The notes under the pieces are model-generated. The model was not told where the DNA came from and searched no databases. It was given only the letters and a program-made list of their open reading frames with translations. From NCBI RefSeq assembly GCF_900109225.1, contig NZ_FNZK01000009.1, positions 62,001-126,000 of the forward strand: a DNA stretch of 64,000 nt, read 5' to 3'. Position 1 is the stretch's first letter. Each line of letters starts with the position of its first letter. The position numbers were made by a program, and so were the translations under genes. Of the stretch, positions 16,110 to 58,865 are shown one piece after another. Source of the stretch: Propionispira arboris. GTDB taxonomy: Bacteria; Bacillota; Negativicutes; Selenomonadales; Selenomonadaceae.

Positions 16110-17789
16110 ATGCAAAAAATATATGATTTGATTATTATTGGCGGCGGGTGCGCGGGTTTGTCGGCGGGAATCTATGCTGGCAGAGCAAAACTCAATACAT
16201 TGCTCATCGAACGAGATCATCCCGGCGGGCAGACCAGTAATACCAATGAAATAGCCAATTATCCAGGAGTTCGGAAGATTACAGGACCTCAATTGATGCA
16301 GGAAATGCAATCTCAGATGCAGGATTTTGCTGTGAGTATTGTGCAAAACGACATACAAATGGTTGATTTTTCTGGTGATGTGAAACGTTTGTATACAGCA
16401 GATGCTGAATACAACACTCGAGCTGTGATCATTGCAACTGGTGCAACACCAAAAAAAATAGGATTCCCGGGAGAGGTTGAATTTACCGGCAAAGGAATTG
16501 GTTATTGTGCAACCTGTGATGGAGAGTTTTTTTCGGGACTTGATATTTTTGTAATTGGTGGCGGTTATGTTGCGGCAGAAGAAGCCGTTTATTTAACACG
16601 ATATGGGAAAACCGTTACGATTGTGATGCGGGGAAAAGATTTTTCTTGCGCAAAATCCATTGCGGATCGGGCGAAAGAACATCCAAAAATCAAAGTGATG
16701 TATAATACCGTGGTGCGGGAAGTTCAAGGAGCGGATTTTCTAGAAAAAGCGGTCTTCTTTAATACAAAAGAAAGAAAAGAAATAGTCTATGAAGCAGCTT
16801 TGGCGGATAAAACGTTTGGCTTATTTGTTTTCGCCGGGTATCAGCCGGCAACTTCTATCTTCAAAGATCAGATTATACTTGATACTGCCGGGTATATTCC
16901 GACGGATGAATTTATGCAAACCAATGTGCCGGGGGTATATGCAGCCGGCGATTTACGGTCAAAGAGCCTACGCCAGATTGTAACGGCAGTAGCCGATGGC
17001 GCCATTGCTGCTACTGCAGCTGAGAAATATATTGCACAGGAAAAAGAACGACTTGGCATTGTTGACGCCGTCAAATCGGTGAATGTTACACCAGCAAAAC
17101 TTGAGGTACCATTGGCTGTAAAAGGACAAACTTTAGAAGAAAACCCGGCAGAATTTATTCCAGCTGAAATGAAAAAACAACTTACCGGACTTTTTGCTGC
17201 ATTGGTAAAAGATATCTCAATTGTTTCGATTTATGAAGAAACGGATGTAAAATCAATGGAGATGGTTACCTTTTTAAAAGAAATAAGCGTTTTGAGTGAT
17301 AAAATAACATTATTGCTTTATCGAAAGAATGAAAATACGAATATGGAAAAACAAATTGGCTTTATGCGGATGCCAATTGCTGCTTTCTTGAATGAAAAAA
17401 ATGAATATGTTGGTATTAAGTTTTCCGGGATACCAGGTGGACATGAAATGACTTCATTTGTGTTAGCTGTTTATAATTTGGCTGGGCCGGGACAGAAAAT
17501 AGAGCTCAGCGTACAAGAAAAAATTGAAAAAATAATAAAACCAACGAGACTAGAAGTTTTTGTATCGTTATCCTGTCATTTTTGCCCGGATGTAGTCAGT
17601 GCCGGACAGAAGATTGCCTCGATTCAGCCGTTGGTAGAGACGGAAATGATTGACATATCACTCTTTCCAGAACTTAAGCAAAAACTAAAAATCATGAGTG
17701 TTCCTGCAATGTCAATTAATGGCGGAAAAATTATTTTCGGTGCTAAAAAAATTGATGAAATTGTTGATCAAATCTTACAGGAGGCATAA
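16110..17789 (+). CDS. Thioredoxin-reductase/AhpF-type peroxiredoxin reductase, rearranged domains
   Basis: This 559-residue flavoprotein probably passes electrons to the upstream AhpC. Residues 1-310 are a thioredoxin-reductase module: FAD loop IIGGGCAGLSAG, redox pair CATC (about 133-136) and the second nucleotide site VIGGGYVAAE. Residues about 330-559 look like the double thioredoxin fold of the AhpF N-terminal domain, with the redox pair CHFC (about 489-492). In enterobacterial AhpF the thioredoxin part comes first, so the order here is reversed. The preferred electron donor (NADH, NADPH or other) cannot be judged; the usual HRR NADPH motif is not seen (VMRGKDF instead). Confidence 0.88.
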   Translation: MQKIYDLIIIGGGCAGLSAGIYAGRAKLNTLLIERDHPGGQTSNTNEIANYPGVRKITGPQLMQEMQSQMQDFAVSIVQNDIQMVDFSGDVKRLYTADAEYNTRAVIIATGATPKKIGFPGEVEFTGKGIGYCATCDGEFFSGLDIFVIGGGYVAAEEAVYLTRYGKTVTIVMRGKDFSCAKSIADRAKEHPKIKVMYNTVVREVQGADFLEKAVFFNTKERKEIVYEAALADKTFGLFVFAGYQPATSIFKDQIILDTAGYIPTDEFMQTNVPGVYAAGDLRSKSLRQIVTAVADGAIAATAAEKYIAQEKERLGIVDAVKSVNVTPAKLEVPLAVKGQTLEENPAEFIPAEMKKQLTGLFAALVKDISIVSIYEETDVKSMEMVTFLKEISVLSDKITLLLYRKNENTNMEKQIGFMRMPIAAFLNEKNEYVGIKFSGIPGGHEMTSFVLAVYNLAGPGQKIELSVQEKIEKIIKPTRLEVFVSLSCHFCPDVVSAGQKIASIQPLVETEMIDISLFPELKQKLKIMSVPAMSINGGKIIFGAKKIDEIVDQILQEA

Positions 17790-53336: not shown

Positions 53337-53618
53337 ATGTCAGAAAGATTAACGTTACAAGATGTTCTCAGAGAGTATGGTATTCCCCAGATTAAGCTTG
53401 ATATTCATGCGACTCGTGAAGAATGTCTGAAATTGCGGGAAAAGTTGATGGCGATTCGTGATCTCAGTCAGGCTAAAGAACAAGGTTATTTAGATATTGA
53501 TTGTAAAGTTTATATTGATGTTGATGATATTGATCGCTATTTATCAGGTGAATTGGATACATTAGCAGAGATTTATGCATTTCCAGAAGATGTGAAAGCT
53601 TATCGGGAGGAAGAATAA
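53337..53618 (+). CDS. Uncharacterised acidic protein
   Basis: This 93-residue acidic protein has no signal peptide or membrane segment. It has a helical middle part (ATREECLKLREKLMAIRDLSQ) and an aspartate-rich stretch (YIDVDDIDRYL). I do not recognise the family. A GGAGG ribosome site precedes the ATG, and the next gene starts two bases after its stop codon, so the two are translated from one message and may act together. Confidence 0.75.
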   Translation: MSERLTLQDVLREYGIPQIKLDIHATREECLKLREKLMAIRDLSQAKEQGYLDIDCKVYIDVDDIDRYLSGELDTLAEIYAFPEDVKAYREEE

Positions 53619-54305: not shown

Positions 54306-55061
54306 TTATTTCGTGATACGTTTTGCGCCAATATATTTTGGCTTCCAATATGAATTATCTAATTCATCGATACGAACCCCTTTACTCGATGAGGTGTGAA
54401 TGAATTTGCCGTCACCAATATAGATTCCACAATGGGAAGGGCCTGGCTCATAGGTCGTGAAAAAAACTAAATCACCGCTTTGCAAGGCACTGCGGCTGAT
54501 ATTTTTGCCCAGTCTATACTGTTCATCGGCGGTACGGGGAATGGATATTTTCTGCTGGGCAAATACATACTGCAGGTAACCGGAACAGTCAAAACCTTTT
54601 GGTGTAGTGCCACCGAATTGGTATGGAACACCGATGTAATGTTTTGCTGTCTGGATAATTGGTGGAACCATATTTGTTGTGATAAACGGGGAACCTTCAG
54701 GTGCCGGGCTATTGGGAAAATTTATTTGACCAACAGCTGGAACGGCTTCTCTTTTTTTTACTATAGGTGTTGCTTTTTTTAGCGCTCGCCAAGTCTGACC
54801 ATCAACGATACCATTAATTTTAATCCGTTGGTCACGCTGAAATTCAAGGACAGCTTGTTTTGTTTCTAAACCAAAAATACCGTCAATACTTGTAATGGTA
54901 TAATTAAGTCGCTTTAATTGCTGTTGCAGAGCTATGACTTCGCTGCCATGCGAACTTTGTGAGAGCGATTTTGCTGCATTTGCTGCCGTGGGAGGAAGTA
55001 AAACAAACAGTAATGTTATGATAATAGAGTAAAGAATCAACTTCATAAAATTCCCTATCAT
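54306..55061 (-). CDS. NlpC/P60 peptidoglycan hydrolase with PG-binding domain
   Basis: This secreted cell-wall endopeptidase of about 251 residues has a signal peptide (about 1-28, ending ANA), a peptidoglycan-binding domain type 1 (about 35-95; VIALQQQLKRLNY, GLETKQAVLEFQRD) and a C-terminal NlpC/P60 domain (about 130-250). The catalytic cysteine is in FDCSGYLQ and the histidines in SHCGIYIG and FIHTSSS. It would cut peptide cross-links. The start is the ATG at 55061 behind AAAGGA; an ATG at 55082 would overlap the arsR end. It lies 14 bases after arsR. Confidence 0.92.
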   Translation of the reverse strand: MIGNFMKLILYSIIITLLFVLLPPTAANAAKSLSQSSHGSEVIALQQQLKRLNYTITSIDGIFGLETKQAVLEFQRDQRIKINGIVDGQTWRALKKATPIVKKREAVPAVGQINFPNSPAPEGSPFITTNMVPPIIQTAKHYIGVPYQFGGTTPKGFDCSGYLQYVFAQQKISIPRTADEQYRLGKNISRSALQSGDLVFFTTYEPGPSHCGIYIGDGKFIHTSSSKGVRIDELDNSYWKPKYIGAKRITK

Positions 55062-55074
55062 TTGATTTTTCCTT

Positions 55075-55455
55075 TCAGCCATGCTTAATATGTTCGAGTC
55101 CCTGACTCATTAGGCTTACAACATGAGAGTCGTCAAGTGAATACCAGGCTTCTTTACCCTCTTTGCGAAATTTTACGAGCCTTGCTCCGCGCAGTACCCT
55201 CAGTTGGTGCGAGATGGCGGACTGACCCATCTGCAGGGTTGCTGCAATATCACAGACGCACATTTCATTTTTTGTGAGCAGTCCTAATATTCGAATCCGT
55301 GTTGGATCCCCAAGGATTTTGAATGTGTCTGCCAAGATCATTGTTGTTTCTTCCGTCAGTAAATGCAGTTTTGCTGCGTGAACCATATCTTGATGTACGA
55401 TATAAGCATCACATGTTTCACAATTGCAAGTTTCAGTTTTTTTTTCATGTATCAT
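55075..55455 (-). CDS. ArsR/SmtB-family metal-responsive repressor
   Basis: This 126-residue winged-helix repressor resembles CadC. It has an N-terminal cysteine cluster CNCETC (residues 9-14) and the ELCVCDI-like motif (MCVCDIAATL, about 67-76) next to a recognition helix (GQSAISHQLRVLRGARLV). These cysteines suit Cd(II), Pb(II) or Zn(II) sensing. No ATATGAA palindrome lies in front of this gene, but a perfect one lies before the P-type ATPase at 44987, its likely target in trans. It is followed by the NlpC/P60 gene in the same direction. Confidence 0.9.
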   Translation of the reverse strand: MIHEKKTETCNCETCDAYIVHQDMVHAAKLHLLTEETTMILADTFKILGDPTRIRILGLLTKNEMCVCDIAATLQMGQSAISHQLRVLRGARLVKFRKEGKEAWYSLDDSHVVSLMSQGLEHIKHG

Positions 55456-55517
55456 TGAATCCTCCTATTCTACTAGCAAGAGAAACTGTCTAAACGCAGA
55501 AAATATTATTATTATTC

Positions 55518-55540
55518 TAATAAGTTGCATTATATATATC
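55518..55540 (-). repeat. Dispersed repeat, minimal footprint F
   Basis: AATAAGTTGCATTATATATATC is the reverse of the footprint at 48468-48487 (ATATAATGCAACTTAT), again without the element body. Confidence 0.5.
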
Positions 55541-55620
55541 AGTATAAAGCAAAAAATAAAATTTGAAAATAAAATCTTTGAAAATAAGTTGTTTTTTCTT
55601 AATGGGGACAGATAAAAAAC

Positions 55621-55778
55621 TGTGGATAACTTTTCAATAAAAGAGAGTTATCAACAATATTATCCACAAAATCGAATATATTGTGGATAAGTATAGGATC
55701 CTGAAACTAAATCATGTGTTACGGTATATAAAAAAGTTATTCACAAGCCTGAATAAATTTATCCCCAACTGTGTATAA
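55621..55778. other. Cluster of DnaA boxes (origin-like or DnaA-titration region)
   Basis: Seven nine-base sites lie within 158 bases. Five match TTATNCACA exactly: TGTGGATAA at 55621 and 55682, TTATCCACA at 55660, TTATTCACA at 55737 and TGTGTATAA at 55770. Two have one change: TTATCAACA at 55648 and TTATCCCCA at 55759. An A/T-only stretch (about 55540-55600) lies on one side. The interval 55456-55871 has no gene. No dnaA or dnaN is in the window, so this is either an origin separated from dnaA or a DnaA reservoir. Confidence 0.8.
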
Positions 55779-55814
55779 GTATTTTTTTCTGTAAAGAAAA
55801 AGTGTGCTTTTGCA

Positions 55815-55862
55815 TTAAAAAGCAGATAACTCCTACGCTGAGAAATTATCTGCTTTTTTAAA
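55815..55862. terminator. Terminator downstream of ilvA
   Basis: AAAAAGCAGATAA pairs with TTATCTGCTTTTTT around a loop of about 16 bases. Read leftward it lies ten bases behind the ilvA stop codon. Confidence 0.85.
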
Positions 55863-55871
55863 TTCGTTTTG

Positions 55872-57116
55872 TTAATATACCTTAGTTACAATAAAATCAT
55901 TTTTTTCTAAAGCGGCAACGATTTGTTTGACATGGTCCTGCCCATGTGTCTCAATAGTAACTTCAAGTTGAACTTTTTTAAAGCTGTCCGTCACTTTGGC
56001 TTGGTTATGGTCAAGTTTTATAACATTGGCATTTTCTGCGGCTAAAACTTGTGAAACTTTAAGCAATTGTCCTGGTTTATCAGGAAGCTGGACCGCAAAA
56101 CAGAAAATGCGTCCACGAGCAATCAAAGCTTTGTCAATTAGAGCTGAAATCGTCGATATATCAATATTGCCGCCACTGACGATAGCGACAACTTTTTTCC
56201 CTTTAAGAGAAAGTTTGGTGAGTGCAGCTAAAGATAGGACACCAGCACCTTCGGCGATCAATTTATGCTTCTCAATTAAAGAGAGTAGAGCTGACATGAT
56301 TTCTAGTTCGGATACGGTTATTATTTCATCCACATATTTTTTTATGAATTCGAACGTCAATTTACCAGGCGTTTTTACAGCTGTACCGTCTGCTACCGTA
56401 TCCACTTGTCGAAGTGTGCTGACTTTCCCCTTGGCAAGGGAGTATTTGATACAGGCGGCCCCCTCTGGCTCGACACCAATGATTTTTACATTTGGATTTA
56501 CTGCTTTGGTAGCAAGAGCTACACCACTGATAAAACCACCGCCACCGACTGGTACAAGTATGGCATCTACATCTTTAAGTTCGTCAATGATCTCAAGAGC
56601 TGTGGTTCCTTGACCGACAAGAACCTGAACATCATCAAAGGGGTGAACAAAGACATATCCGTGTTCTTTTTGTAGTTCAACGGCTTTTCCGTAAGCATCA
56701 TCATAGCTGTCTCCGTAAAGAACTACTTCGGCACCGTAAGCGCGTGTCGCTTCAACCTTTAAGATCGGAGTCGTTGCTGGCATAGCAATAACAGCTTTTA
56801 CACCGAGCTGCTGAGCGGCAAATGCTACGCCTTGGGCATGATTGCCAGCGGAAGCTGTGATGACACCTTTTGATTTTTCTTCGGTAGATAGCTGACTAAT
56901 TTTGTTATAAGCACCACGTAATTTAAAAGAACCTGTGTTTTGCAGATTTTCTGGTTTAATGTAGACATCATTTCCAGAAATAGAAGAAAAATATGGGCTT
57001 TGAATTAAATGTGTTTTTTTTACGACTTGATTTAATTGTTTTGCAGCCTGATAGACATCCGCAATGGATGTACTTTCCATGATTGATTGAGCGGTTGATT
57101 TTTTTTCTTCAGACAT
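55872..57116 (-). CDS. ilvA: Threonine ammonia-lyase
   Basis: This 414-residue PLP enzyme deaminates threonine to 2-oxobutyrate. The PLP lysine is in GSFKLRGAYNKI (near residue 62), the phosphate loop is GGGGFISGVA, and a C-terminal ACT-like domain (about 330-414; AVQLPDKPGQLLKVSQVL) is of the single-ACT catabolic/biodegradative type found in many Firmicutes. It may serve isoleucine synthesis or threonine breakdown; no ilv or tdc genes are adjacent. The start is the ATG at 57116 behind AGGAGG; a longer frame to 57176 lies in the leader. Confidence 0.93.
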   Translation of the reverse strand: MSEEKKSTAQSIMESTSIADVYQAAKQLNQVVKKTHLIQSPYFSSISGNDVYIKPENLQNTGSFKLRGAYNKISQLSTEEKSKGVITASAGNHAQGVAFAAQQLGVKAVIAMPATTPILKVEATRAYGAEVVLYGDSYDDAYGKAVELQKEHGYVFVHPFDDVQVLVGQGTTALEIIDELKDVDAILVPVGGGGFISGVALATKAVNPNVKIIGVEPEGAACIKYSLAKGKVSTLRQVDTVADGTAVKTPGKLTFEFIKKYVDEIITVSELEIMSALLSLIEKHKLIAEGAGVLSLAALTKLSLKGKKVVAIVSGGNIDISTISALIDKALIARGRIFCFAVQLPDKPGQLLKVSQVLAAENANVIKLDHNQAKVTDSFKKVQLEVTIETHGQDHVKQIVAALEKNDFIVTKVY

Positions 57117-57319: not shown

Positions 57320-57491
57320 GTTTGATTCGGCAAAATATAGTCGTGTTTTGCTATAAATTCAGGTAATTTGTAATTATTTATGGAAGTCGTTGTAAAAAGA
57401 CAGGACTTTTAGCAGTTGTAACGAAGTATTAATATATGACAATAAGAGGCTAGAAAAAGACGAAGGATACATATAAAGAGGAGTGAGCTTT

Positions 57492-57929
57492 ATGCAGGCA
57501 TTTGGACGGATTTTGGTGCCAGTAGATGGTTCGAAAAATTCGGATAAGGCTATTGCAGCAGCAGTTGATATTAATTCCGTATCCCATGGGCAGATTGATT
57601 TTTTATATGTGGCTTATTTTAATGGCAATACCGATGATCCGGCGGATCAGATTTCATGGCTGCCGGATGAATTTACGGGATCAATCCAGCAAATCAGCCA
57701 GGCTGTTTTGCTGCATGCCGTAAAGCAGATTTCAACAGATTCAAATTATATGACACATACTGCAACTGGAATTCCGGCGAAACAAATTCTGAAATTTGCC
57801 AAGGACCATGCAAGCGATTTAATTGTAATTGGCGGGCGCGGCCTTGGGGTTGTCGAGGGTTTTTTGCTTGGTAGTGTGAGTCAGGAAGTTCTCGAACATG
57901 CCCGCTGCCCAGTTCTTATCGTGAAATAA
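57492..57929 (+). CDS. Universal stress protein (first of three)
   Basis: This UspA-fold protein of about 145 residues starts FGRILVPVDGSKNS. The ATP-binding motif of the family reads GGRGLGVVEGFLLGSVSQEVL near residues 112-132 and the end CPVLIVK is typical. ATP-binding Usp proteins support survival under energy or redox stress. The start is the ATG at 57492 behind AGGAG; a GTG at 57483 overlaps that site. It is the most divergent of the three tandem copies. Confidence 0.9.
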   Translation: MQAFGRILVPVDGSKNSDKAIAAAVDINSVSHGQIDFLYVAYFNGNTDDPADQISWLPDEFTGSIQQISQAVLLHAVKQISTDSNYMTHTATGIPAKQILKFAKDHASDLIVIGGRGLGVVEGFLLGSVSQEVLEHARCPVLIVK

Positions 57930-57965
57930 CAGATCATATAAATCGAAAAATAGGGGGGGATTATT

Positions 57966-58430
57966 ATGGCGGAATATCGACATATTTTAGTTCCAGTTGA
58001 TGGTTCAGCAAGTTCGTTAAAGGCAGTAGAACAAGCTATTGAGCTAGCTGGACTTTGTGATGCTGAAATCAACTTCATCCATGTAGCAAATTTAAATGGT
58101 GTCATGGGAAGTTACCCCGCGTTTGTATCGCCTCGTTCTACTTTTAGTGGTTCTATATTGGAAGATGTAGTAGAAATTGGTAGAAAAATATTAGACCAAG
58201 CATTGGATATGGTGCCGCAATCTATTAAAGCAAAAGGGCATTGTGTAAATGGAAACCCTGCTTCGGCAATTTTGCAAGAAGCAGAAGCCTTGAAGGTTGA
58301 TTTGATTATAGTTGGAAGTCGGGGGCTGGGAGTGCTGAAGGGAACTTTGGTTGGCAGTGTCAGCCGTTCTTTGTTAGGCAATGCAAATTGTCCTGTTCTG
58401 GTTGTGAAAGCAGTAGAAGAAGAAAAATAG
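57966..58430 (+). CDS. Universal stress protein (second of three)
   Basis: This 154-residue UspA-fold protein starts YRHILVPVDGSASS, with ATP-binding motif GSRGLGVLKGTLVGSVSRSLL and end CPVLVVK. It follows the first copy by 36 bases with GGGGGG before the ATG. It has a longer loop (MGSYPAFVSPRSTFSGS) than the third copy. Confidence 0.9.
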   Translation: MAEYRHILVPVDGSASSLKAVEQAIELAGLCDAEINFIHVANLNGVMGSYPAFVSPRSTFSGSILEDVVEIGRKILDQALDMVPQSIKAKGHCVNGNPASAILQEAEALKVDLIIVGSRGLGVLKGTLVGSVSRSLLGNANCPVLVVKAVEEEK

Positions 58431-58442
58431 GAGGATATTATT

Positions 58443-58865
58443 ATGGATAAAATTAGACGTATTTTAGTTCCGGTCGATGGGTCAGAAAGCTCAGATCGAG
58501 CAATTTCACAGGCAATAACGCTGGCGGATGTTTGTGAAGCGAAAATAGCATTTCTCTATGTGGCCAATATCAATCAATTGGCGATTAATGCTTGTTTATC
58601 AGATGCGATTTTAGAAGCTGTTACAAAAGCAGGCAATGTAATTTTGGATAAAGCACTTGCTGATGTTCCAGAGTCGATTACAGCGGAAGGATTTGCTGAA
58701 ACTGGATCACCAGCCGTGGTGATTCTTGATTTTGCAAATTCAGAAGGTATTGATATGATCGTCATGGGAAGTCGGGGACTTGGGATTGTGAAAGGTGTAC
58801 TTTTAGGCAGTGTCAGCCAGTATATTGTTGAACAATCAAAATGTCCGGTGCTTGTTGTAAAATAA
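58443..58865 (+). CDS. Universal stress protein (third of three)
   Basis: This 140-residue UspA-fold protein starts IRRILVPVDGSESS, with ATP-binding motif GSRGLGIVKGVLLGSVSQYIV and end CPVLVVK. It is 12 bases after the second copy, behind AGGAGG, and ends at a strong terminator, closing a three-gene operon that arose by tandem duplication. Confidence 0.9.
   Translation: MDKIRRILVPVDGSESSDRAISQAITLADVCEAKIAFLYVANINQLAINACLSDAILEAVTKAGNVILDKALADVPESITAEGFAETGSPAVVILDFANSEGIDMIVMGSRGLGIVKGVLLGSVSQYIVEQSKCPVLVVK

Follow-up and report, generated by a model that had tools for sequence, protein, structure and literature searches.

Why a chromosome should carry a dense group of DnaA boxes with no dnaA gene nearby is the question raised by a locus in Propionispira (Selenomonadaceae, Negativicutes), found in a 64-kb stretch of contig C17 (positions 62001-126000, here called the window) of a 97%-complete draft genome of 4.26 Mb in 40 contigs. 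The original prediction counted seven boxes, five of them exact, within 158 bases, and the same count was obtained at 55621-55778, where exact stands for TTATNCACA. The cluster begins with an exact box on the minus strand (TTATCCACA, 55621-55629), followed on the plus strand by a box with one mismatch (TTATCAACA, 55648-55656) and an exact box (TTATCCACA, 55660-55668), and then by an exact box on the minus strand (TTATCCACA, 55682-55690). These last three boxes form a triad (55648-55690, plus strand) composed of two tandem boxes separated by 3 nt and an inverted box after a further 13 nt, with one mismatch overall. An exact box (TTATTCACA, 55737-55745) and a box with one mismatch (TTATCCCCA, 55759-55767), both on the plus strand, and an exact box on the minus strand (TTATACACA, 55770-55778) complete the cluster.

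The identities of the neighbouring genes were confirmed with Pfam. The cluster lies in a 416-bp intergenic region (55456-55871) flanked on one side by an arsR-family regulator gene (55075-55455), which overlaps by 8 bases with a gene encoding an NlpC/P60 cell-wall hydrolase with a peptidoglycan-binding domain (54306-55082), and on the other by ilvA, with PALP and ACT domains (55872-57116), all three on the minus strand. An inverted repeat with 18-nt arms (55817-55858) adjoins ilvA and is perhaps its terminator; the terminator scan itself called none. An A/T-only stretch had also been described next to the boxes, and the region is indeed poor in GC (26.7%), but its longest run of A and T alone is just 17 nt (55500-55516). 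Elsewhere in the window, three tandem ORFs at 57483-58865 resemble universal stress proteins by eye, and a 93-aa ORF at 53337-53618 had no Pfam match. Five of the six exact boxes of the window fall inside the cluster; in 300 dinucleotide shuffles of the window, the maximum number of exact boxes per 158 nt was two in 16 shuffles, one in 280, and zero in four. The window as a whole contains 96 boxes with at most one mismatch against 96.5 expected, so the total is not raised and the clustering alone is unusual.

One reading offered for the locus was a displaced origin, with the location of dnaA and the GC skew proposed as the check. A single Bac_DnaA match at E ≤ 0.001 was obtained in the genome, on contig C21 and not on C17. 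On C21, the gene order is rnpA-dnaA-dnaN-recF (names assigned by eye and by tblastn), DnaA boxes flank dnaA on both sides, and the GC skew changes from -0.23 to +0.24. The gap between dnaA and dnaN contains a GGCCC cluster followed by the repeat CTA-CGA-CTA-CGA-CGA-CTA. The scan used the DnaA-trio rule as cited in a section of PMC7561715; the CTA units alone (half of the units) fit this rule and the repeat satisfies a relaxed version, which makes it trio-like. Given the gene order, the boxes flanking dnaA, the skew flip, and the GC cluster with its trio-like repeat, the C21 dnaA region marks a bipartite oriC. Around the cluster, 31 of the 32 2-kb bins of the window have positive skew and the remaining bin has -0.011, without inversion, and the skew stays positive over two further 20-kb stretches of C17 (coverage: the contig other than 20001-62000 and 146001-150889). 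At the cluster itself, neither the cited nor the relaxed rule gave a trio run behind a GC cluster. The cluster resembles the oriC of the class in its identical box consensus and its tandem pairs 3 nt apart, and triads with gaps of 2-3 nt occur at dnaA in the fetched loci of the class, but it differs in having no dnaA/dnaN, no GC cluster with a trio run, and no skew flip. On the grounds of dnaA location, skew over the covered parts of C17, and the lack of a GC cluster with a trio run, the displaced origin was rejected. A displaced or second chromosomal origin would suit the box density and the A/T-rich surroundings, but is extremely unlikely.

The cluster is not the only one in the genome, and other clusters of the same sort occur on the chromosome. 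Exact boxes number 281 genome-wide against 143 for the reversed pattern, and TTATCCACA occurs 81 times against 33 (complete list). The genome has at least four more clusters outside the origin that each hold a minimum of three exact boxes. The cluster on C27 (69866-70181; in the fetched stretch L003, 9867-10182) is larger than that of the window, with 11 exact boxes in 316 bases, and is situated upstream of tRNA-Arg(ACG). The others are found on C14 (about 97577-97734; four exact and three near boxes), on C21 beside mgtC (about 17312-17423; three exact boxes), and on C15 (50654-50735; three exact boxes), while C18 bears one close pair of boxes. The triad with the 13-nt gap is common to C17, C14, and C27, where it occurs twice, with at most one mismatch each. 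Additionally, C17 and C14 have in common an opposite box 18 nt before the triad; the 13-nt gap sequences differ among C17, C14, and C27. About 2 kb from the C27 cluster, behind an amino-acid permease gene, lies a gene that we call DWSRP after the ending of its product (in L003, 7407-7721; 104 aa), for which Pfam returned no match. The DWSRP gene is repeatedly located beside a DnaA-box cluster and tRNA-Arg across Negativicutes.

When the search was extended to relatives, the triad with a 13-nt gap and at most three mismatches was present in 29 of 60 genomes, our own included, and the reversed-triad control in none of the 60. Among 30 fetched triad loci, 19 had tRNA-Arg and/or a DWSRP relative within 1.5 kb and 11 did not; by hand count, the 19 represent 18 distinct sites in 18 genomes from 15 of the 22 families sampled, and C27 is the Propionispira copy of this type. 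A second locus, flanked by a LysA-type decarboxylase gene on one side and one for a DegS-type kinase on the other and corresponding to C14, bears a triad in five other families (G052, G040, G037, G048, and G053), and Pectinatus has a cluster beside mgtC, as on C21. Eight of 15 loci examined matched none of our marker genes, indicating that more cluster loci exist than those named here. The genome G001, of the same genus, was discarded for judging conservation because it is too close, with identity at 451 of the region's 461 positions. Chance abundance of similar clusters across the genome, which the original prediction had named as refuting, holds in part only: such clusters do exist, but they are conserved and not a product of chance. 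Judged from these comparisons, the DnaA-box cluster is genuine and conserved and lies outside the origin.

Seven triads in five relatives share a contig with dnaA at distances of 182-409 kb, equal to 5.1-11.4% of the contig when contigs are treated as circular, and in G040 and G052 triads are situated to either side of dnaA. A non-origin box cluster, of a kind that lies 5-11% of the contig from dnaA in relatives, could act like E. coli datA, where clustered ATP-DnaA would hydrolyse ATP and thereby lower initiation activity. Both are non-oriC box clusters, and the tRNA-Gly genes adjoining datA have a parallel in the tRNA-Arg gene beside the class-wide cluster, represented here by the sister cluster C27. 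In datA, the DnaA boxes are arranged around a single IHF site with fixed spacing. By eye, the box layout here is unlike that of datA, and we regard a datA-like role as very unlikely.

Within the family, IlvA was matched in all 111 genomes searched, in some only remotely, and the best 30 loci were examined. The 450 nt beyond ilvA contain three to five exact boxes in ten of these loci and none or one in the other 20. The ten box-rich loci come from genera g1, g22, g24, and g5, and nlpC adjoins in nine of them, the tenth ending at a contig end; among the 20 box-poor loci, nlpC adjoins in two, almost without a gap. For nlpC, 61 genomes were searched and 30 loci fetched, four of which have at least three exact boxes upstream and 26 none. 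In G016 (genus g16), the cluster accompanies arsR-nlpC in a locus with no ilvA match, and overall the cluster stays with nlpC more often than with ilvA. Family-wide, this copy is not essential, since 26 of 30 nlpC loci and 20 of 30 ilvA loci are without it. Each of the 11 cluster-bearing loci (the ten and G016; L184, L185, and L189 are repeats of three of the ten) contains a single triad in which no box has more than one mismatch. Its gap is 13 nt in g1, 12 in g22, 25 in g5, 23 in g24, and 24 in g16, the triads of g24 and g16 being on the other strand, and by eye the DNA flanking the triads differs between genera. The presence of one triad in all 11 loci indicates that it was kept or rebuilt here at one or two extra turns.

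The company of nlpC could also point to local transcription control, in which bound DnaA would repress or activate arsR-nlpC and so link the cell-wall hydrolase to the replication cycle. The cluster is upstream of arsR-nlpC and kept with nlpC more than with ilvA, other clusters are likewise upstream of a gene or tRNA, and a promoter-like site at 55687-55659, read on the strand of arsR, coincides in part with the triad's inverted box. Nevertheless, promoter-like sites are not in excess (five against 3.5 in shuffles, sd 1.6), the 26 nlpC loci mentioned above have no exact box upstream, and the genes beside the different clusters have no evident common function. Control of arsR-nlpC thus appears unlikely from the sequence.

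The geometry of the triad was examined more widely in 300 genomes of the class, in which the exact pattern box-N3-box-N{0,30}-inverted box gave 106 matches in 75 genomes. All 106 gaps fall into three bands spaced about one helical turn, namely 2-5 nt (61), 12-14 nt (33), and 24-26 nt (12), with none elsewhere in the range 0-30. These bands are drawn from 16, 18, and 6 genera, respectively, with 44 distinct genus-gap pairs overall, and as the 300 genomes are related, the counts do not amount to a probability. The phasing is not peculiar to the inverted box, given that a direct third box, which is rarer (22 matches in 17 of the 300 genomes), was phased too, with gaps of 0-2 nt (6), 10-12 and 14 nt (13), and 22 and 24 nt (3). 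In 384 genomes from the rest of the phylum, gaps of 2-4 nt dominate and a gap of 13 occurs in three; the phasing is looser there, gaps of 1, 15, 19, 20, 27, and 29 nt occurring too. The idea that the triad is special to non-origin loci was rejected in part, as the class has the gap-2/3 form at dnaA in the fetched loci. Outside the class, seven of 75 stretches with an exact gap-13 triad also hold dnaA (L109, L119, L134, L135, L139, L164, and L169), and the spacing one turn longer may be used at origins there. A box hidden in the 13-nt gap (13 = 2+9+2) was rejected as a general explanation, the mean best mismatch being 3.68 against 3.74 in shuffled gaps. This comparison covered a hand-picked set of 44 gaps with some matches omitted, of which 11 had at most two mismatches against about 3.5 expected, and some loci may hold such a box.

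The fixed geometry suggests a defined DnaA complex. A section of PMC11317965 reports that E. coli DnaA prefers in vivo double boxes 2-3 bp apart. For the Thermotoga DnaA pairs described in part of PMC10316083, binding is strongest at a spacing of 4 bp when the boxes are inverted and of 2 bp when they are direct, and these optima agree with the first gap band. Concerning the protein itself, domain IV of DnaA is well conserved relative to E. coli. The E. coli residues Arg285, Arg227, Leu290, and Lys243, whose roles are set out in a portion of PMC5742627, are kept in all six class DnaAs compared. All six also keep Arg334, Arg399, and Thr435. In E. coli DnaA, these three are functional residues. 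Val211 is replaced by Ile in six of six, Arg245 by His, Gln, or Ser, and Gln208 by Asn in six of six; in E. coli, Gln208 is needed for DARS-dependent release of ADP. Regarding the regulators, no YabA match was obtained in the 97%-complete genome, the control having matched B. subtilis and Lactococcus lactis, and a second Bac_DnaA protein of the Hda type was not found in it either. With neither YabA nor Hda found, other control would be needed.

Another candidate is a DARS-like site, at which ADP-DnaA bound to the tandem boxes and to the third box facing them would shed ADP, yielding more ATP-DnaA and promoting initiation. The box order and polarity of the triad equal those of the DARS1 and DARS2 cores of E. 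coli MG1655, in which box III is followed after 3 nt by box II and, after 5 nt more, by the inverted box I; their box orientation and equal spacing are also given in a passage of PMC5742627. DARS2 additionally has IHF and Fis sites. The three-box core, two tandem boxes with 3 nt between them opposite an inverted one, is present at 55648-55690, and its fixed geometry would suit a defined complex. Moreover, two genomes of family f15 of the class (L056 and L059) have a gap of exactly 5 nt at the DWSRP locus, as in DARS, and the C27 cluster ends with a box, 5 nt, an inverted box, 2 nt, and another inverted box. In contrast, the inverted box of the cluster lies 13 nt from the tandem pair and not 5, the substitution of Gln208 by Asn does not match the DARS requirement, and triads with gaps of 2-3 nt also occur at dnaA, so the arrangement is not reserved for reactivation. 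A DARS-like role seems rather unlikely.

We give about an even chance to the reading in which the cluster belongs to a small chromosomal set of DnaA-assembly sites outside the origin that limit free DnaA in the manner of the Bacillus clusters. The alternative to a displaced origin in the original prediction, a locus that titrates or reactivates DnaA, fits the comparable clusters elsewhere in the genome, some of them syntenic across the class. DnaA would occupy the tandem pair as a dimer that binds cooperatively. With the inverted box set one helical turn farther away than at oriC, a third DnaA could dock on roughly the same side of the helix, and the flanking boxes would add further DnaA. Together with its sister clusters, the site would tie up part of the DnaA, the free pool would fall, and initiation at oriC would be delayed until enough DnaA had been made, as proposed for the B. 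subtilis clusters. Several observations argue for an assembly site, including clustering far above that in shuffles, the sister clusters with the triad common to three loci, class-wide syntenic clusters, a triad cluster at this locus in five genera, phased gaps, the preference of E. coli DnaA for tandem boxes 2-3 bp apart, and the conserved domain IV. The early initiation of B. subtilis without its six clusters and the lack of YabA and Hda matches here point the same way.

Like a Bacillus-type DnaA-box cluster, the one described here lies in non-coding DNA away from oriC and has several counterparts on its chromosome, and the B. subtilis chromosome also carries several multi-box non-origin clusters (Okumura et al. 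2012, as cited in parts of PMC5295017 and PMC13220808) in a member of Bacillota without Hda. Some of the Negativicutes clusters are syntenic across the class and share a phased triad. Passages of PMC5295017 and PMC13220808 report that joint loss of the six DnaA-box clusters led to early initiation in B. subtilis; PMC5295017 itself rates the clusters as having no significant role in initiation, and PMC13220808 adds that about tenfold overproduction of DnaA gave no over-initiation. By analogy, the simplest function would be that of the B. subtilis clusters, and the cluster probably helps set the timing of chromosome copying. Plain titration would need no fixed geometry, which counts against it, as does the lack of the cluster at most of the fetched ilvA and nlpC loci of the family; an active role may fit such a geometry.

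Such a role could be that of DnaA-remodelling elements of the Negativicutes' own, in which a phased three-box core at conserved loci would do the work performed by Hda, datA, and DARS in E. coli and by YabA in B. subtilis, the window copy being a lineage-specific extra. The core would be DARS-like in polarity, with one or two helical turns inserted between the opposed boxes, and the conserved loci would lie on both arms of the chromosome, in the parts nearer the origin; we consider this rather unlikely. According to a portion of a 2026 review (PMC13220808), B. subtilis has no datA, DARS1, or DARS2, and is not known to have regulators that balance ATP- and ADP-DnaA. Our search of the open-access literature returned no account of such DnaA-box clusters for Negativicutes, Selenomonas, or Veillonella. 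The comparison thus draws attention to a class of Bacillota with non-origin DnaA-box clusters syntenic over many families, represented by a genome in which neither Hda nor YabA was found. The triad geometry is so strict that a defined DnaA complex can be predicted from it, and the clusters would provide short, exact DNA targets for distinguishing titration from nucleotide exchange beyond the two model species.
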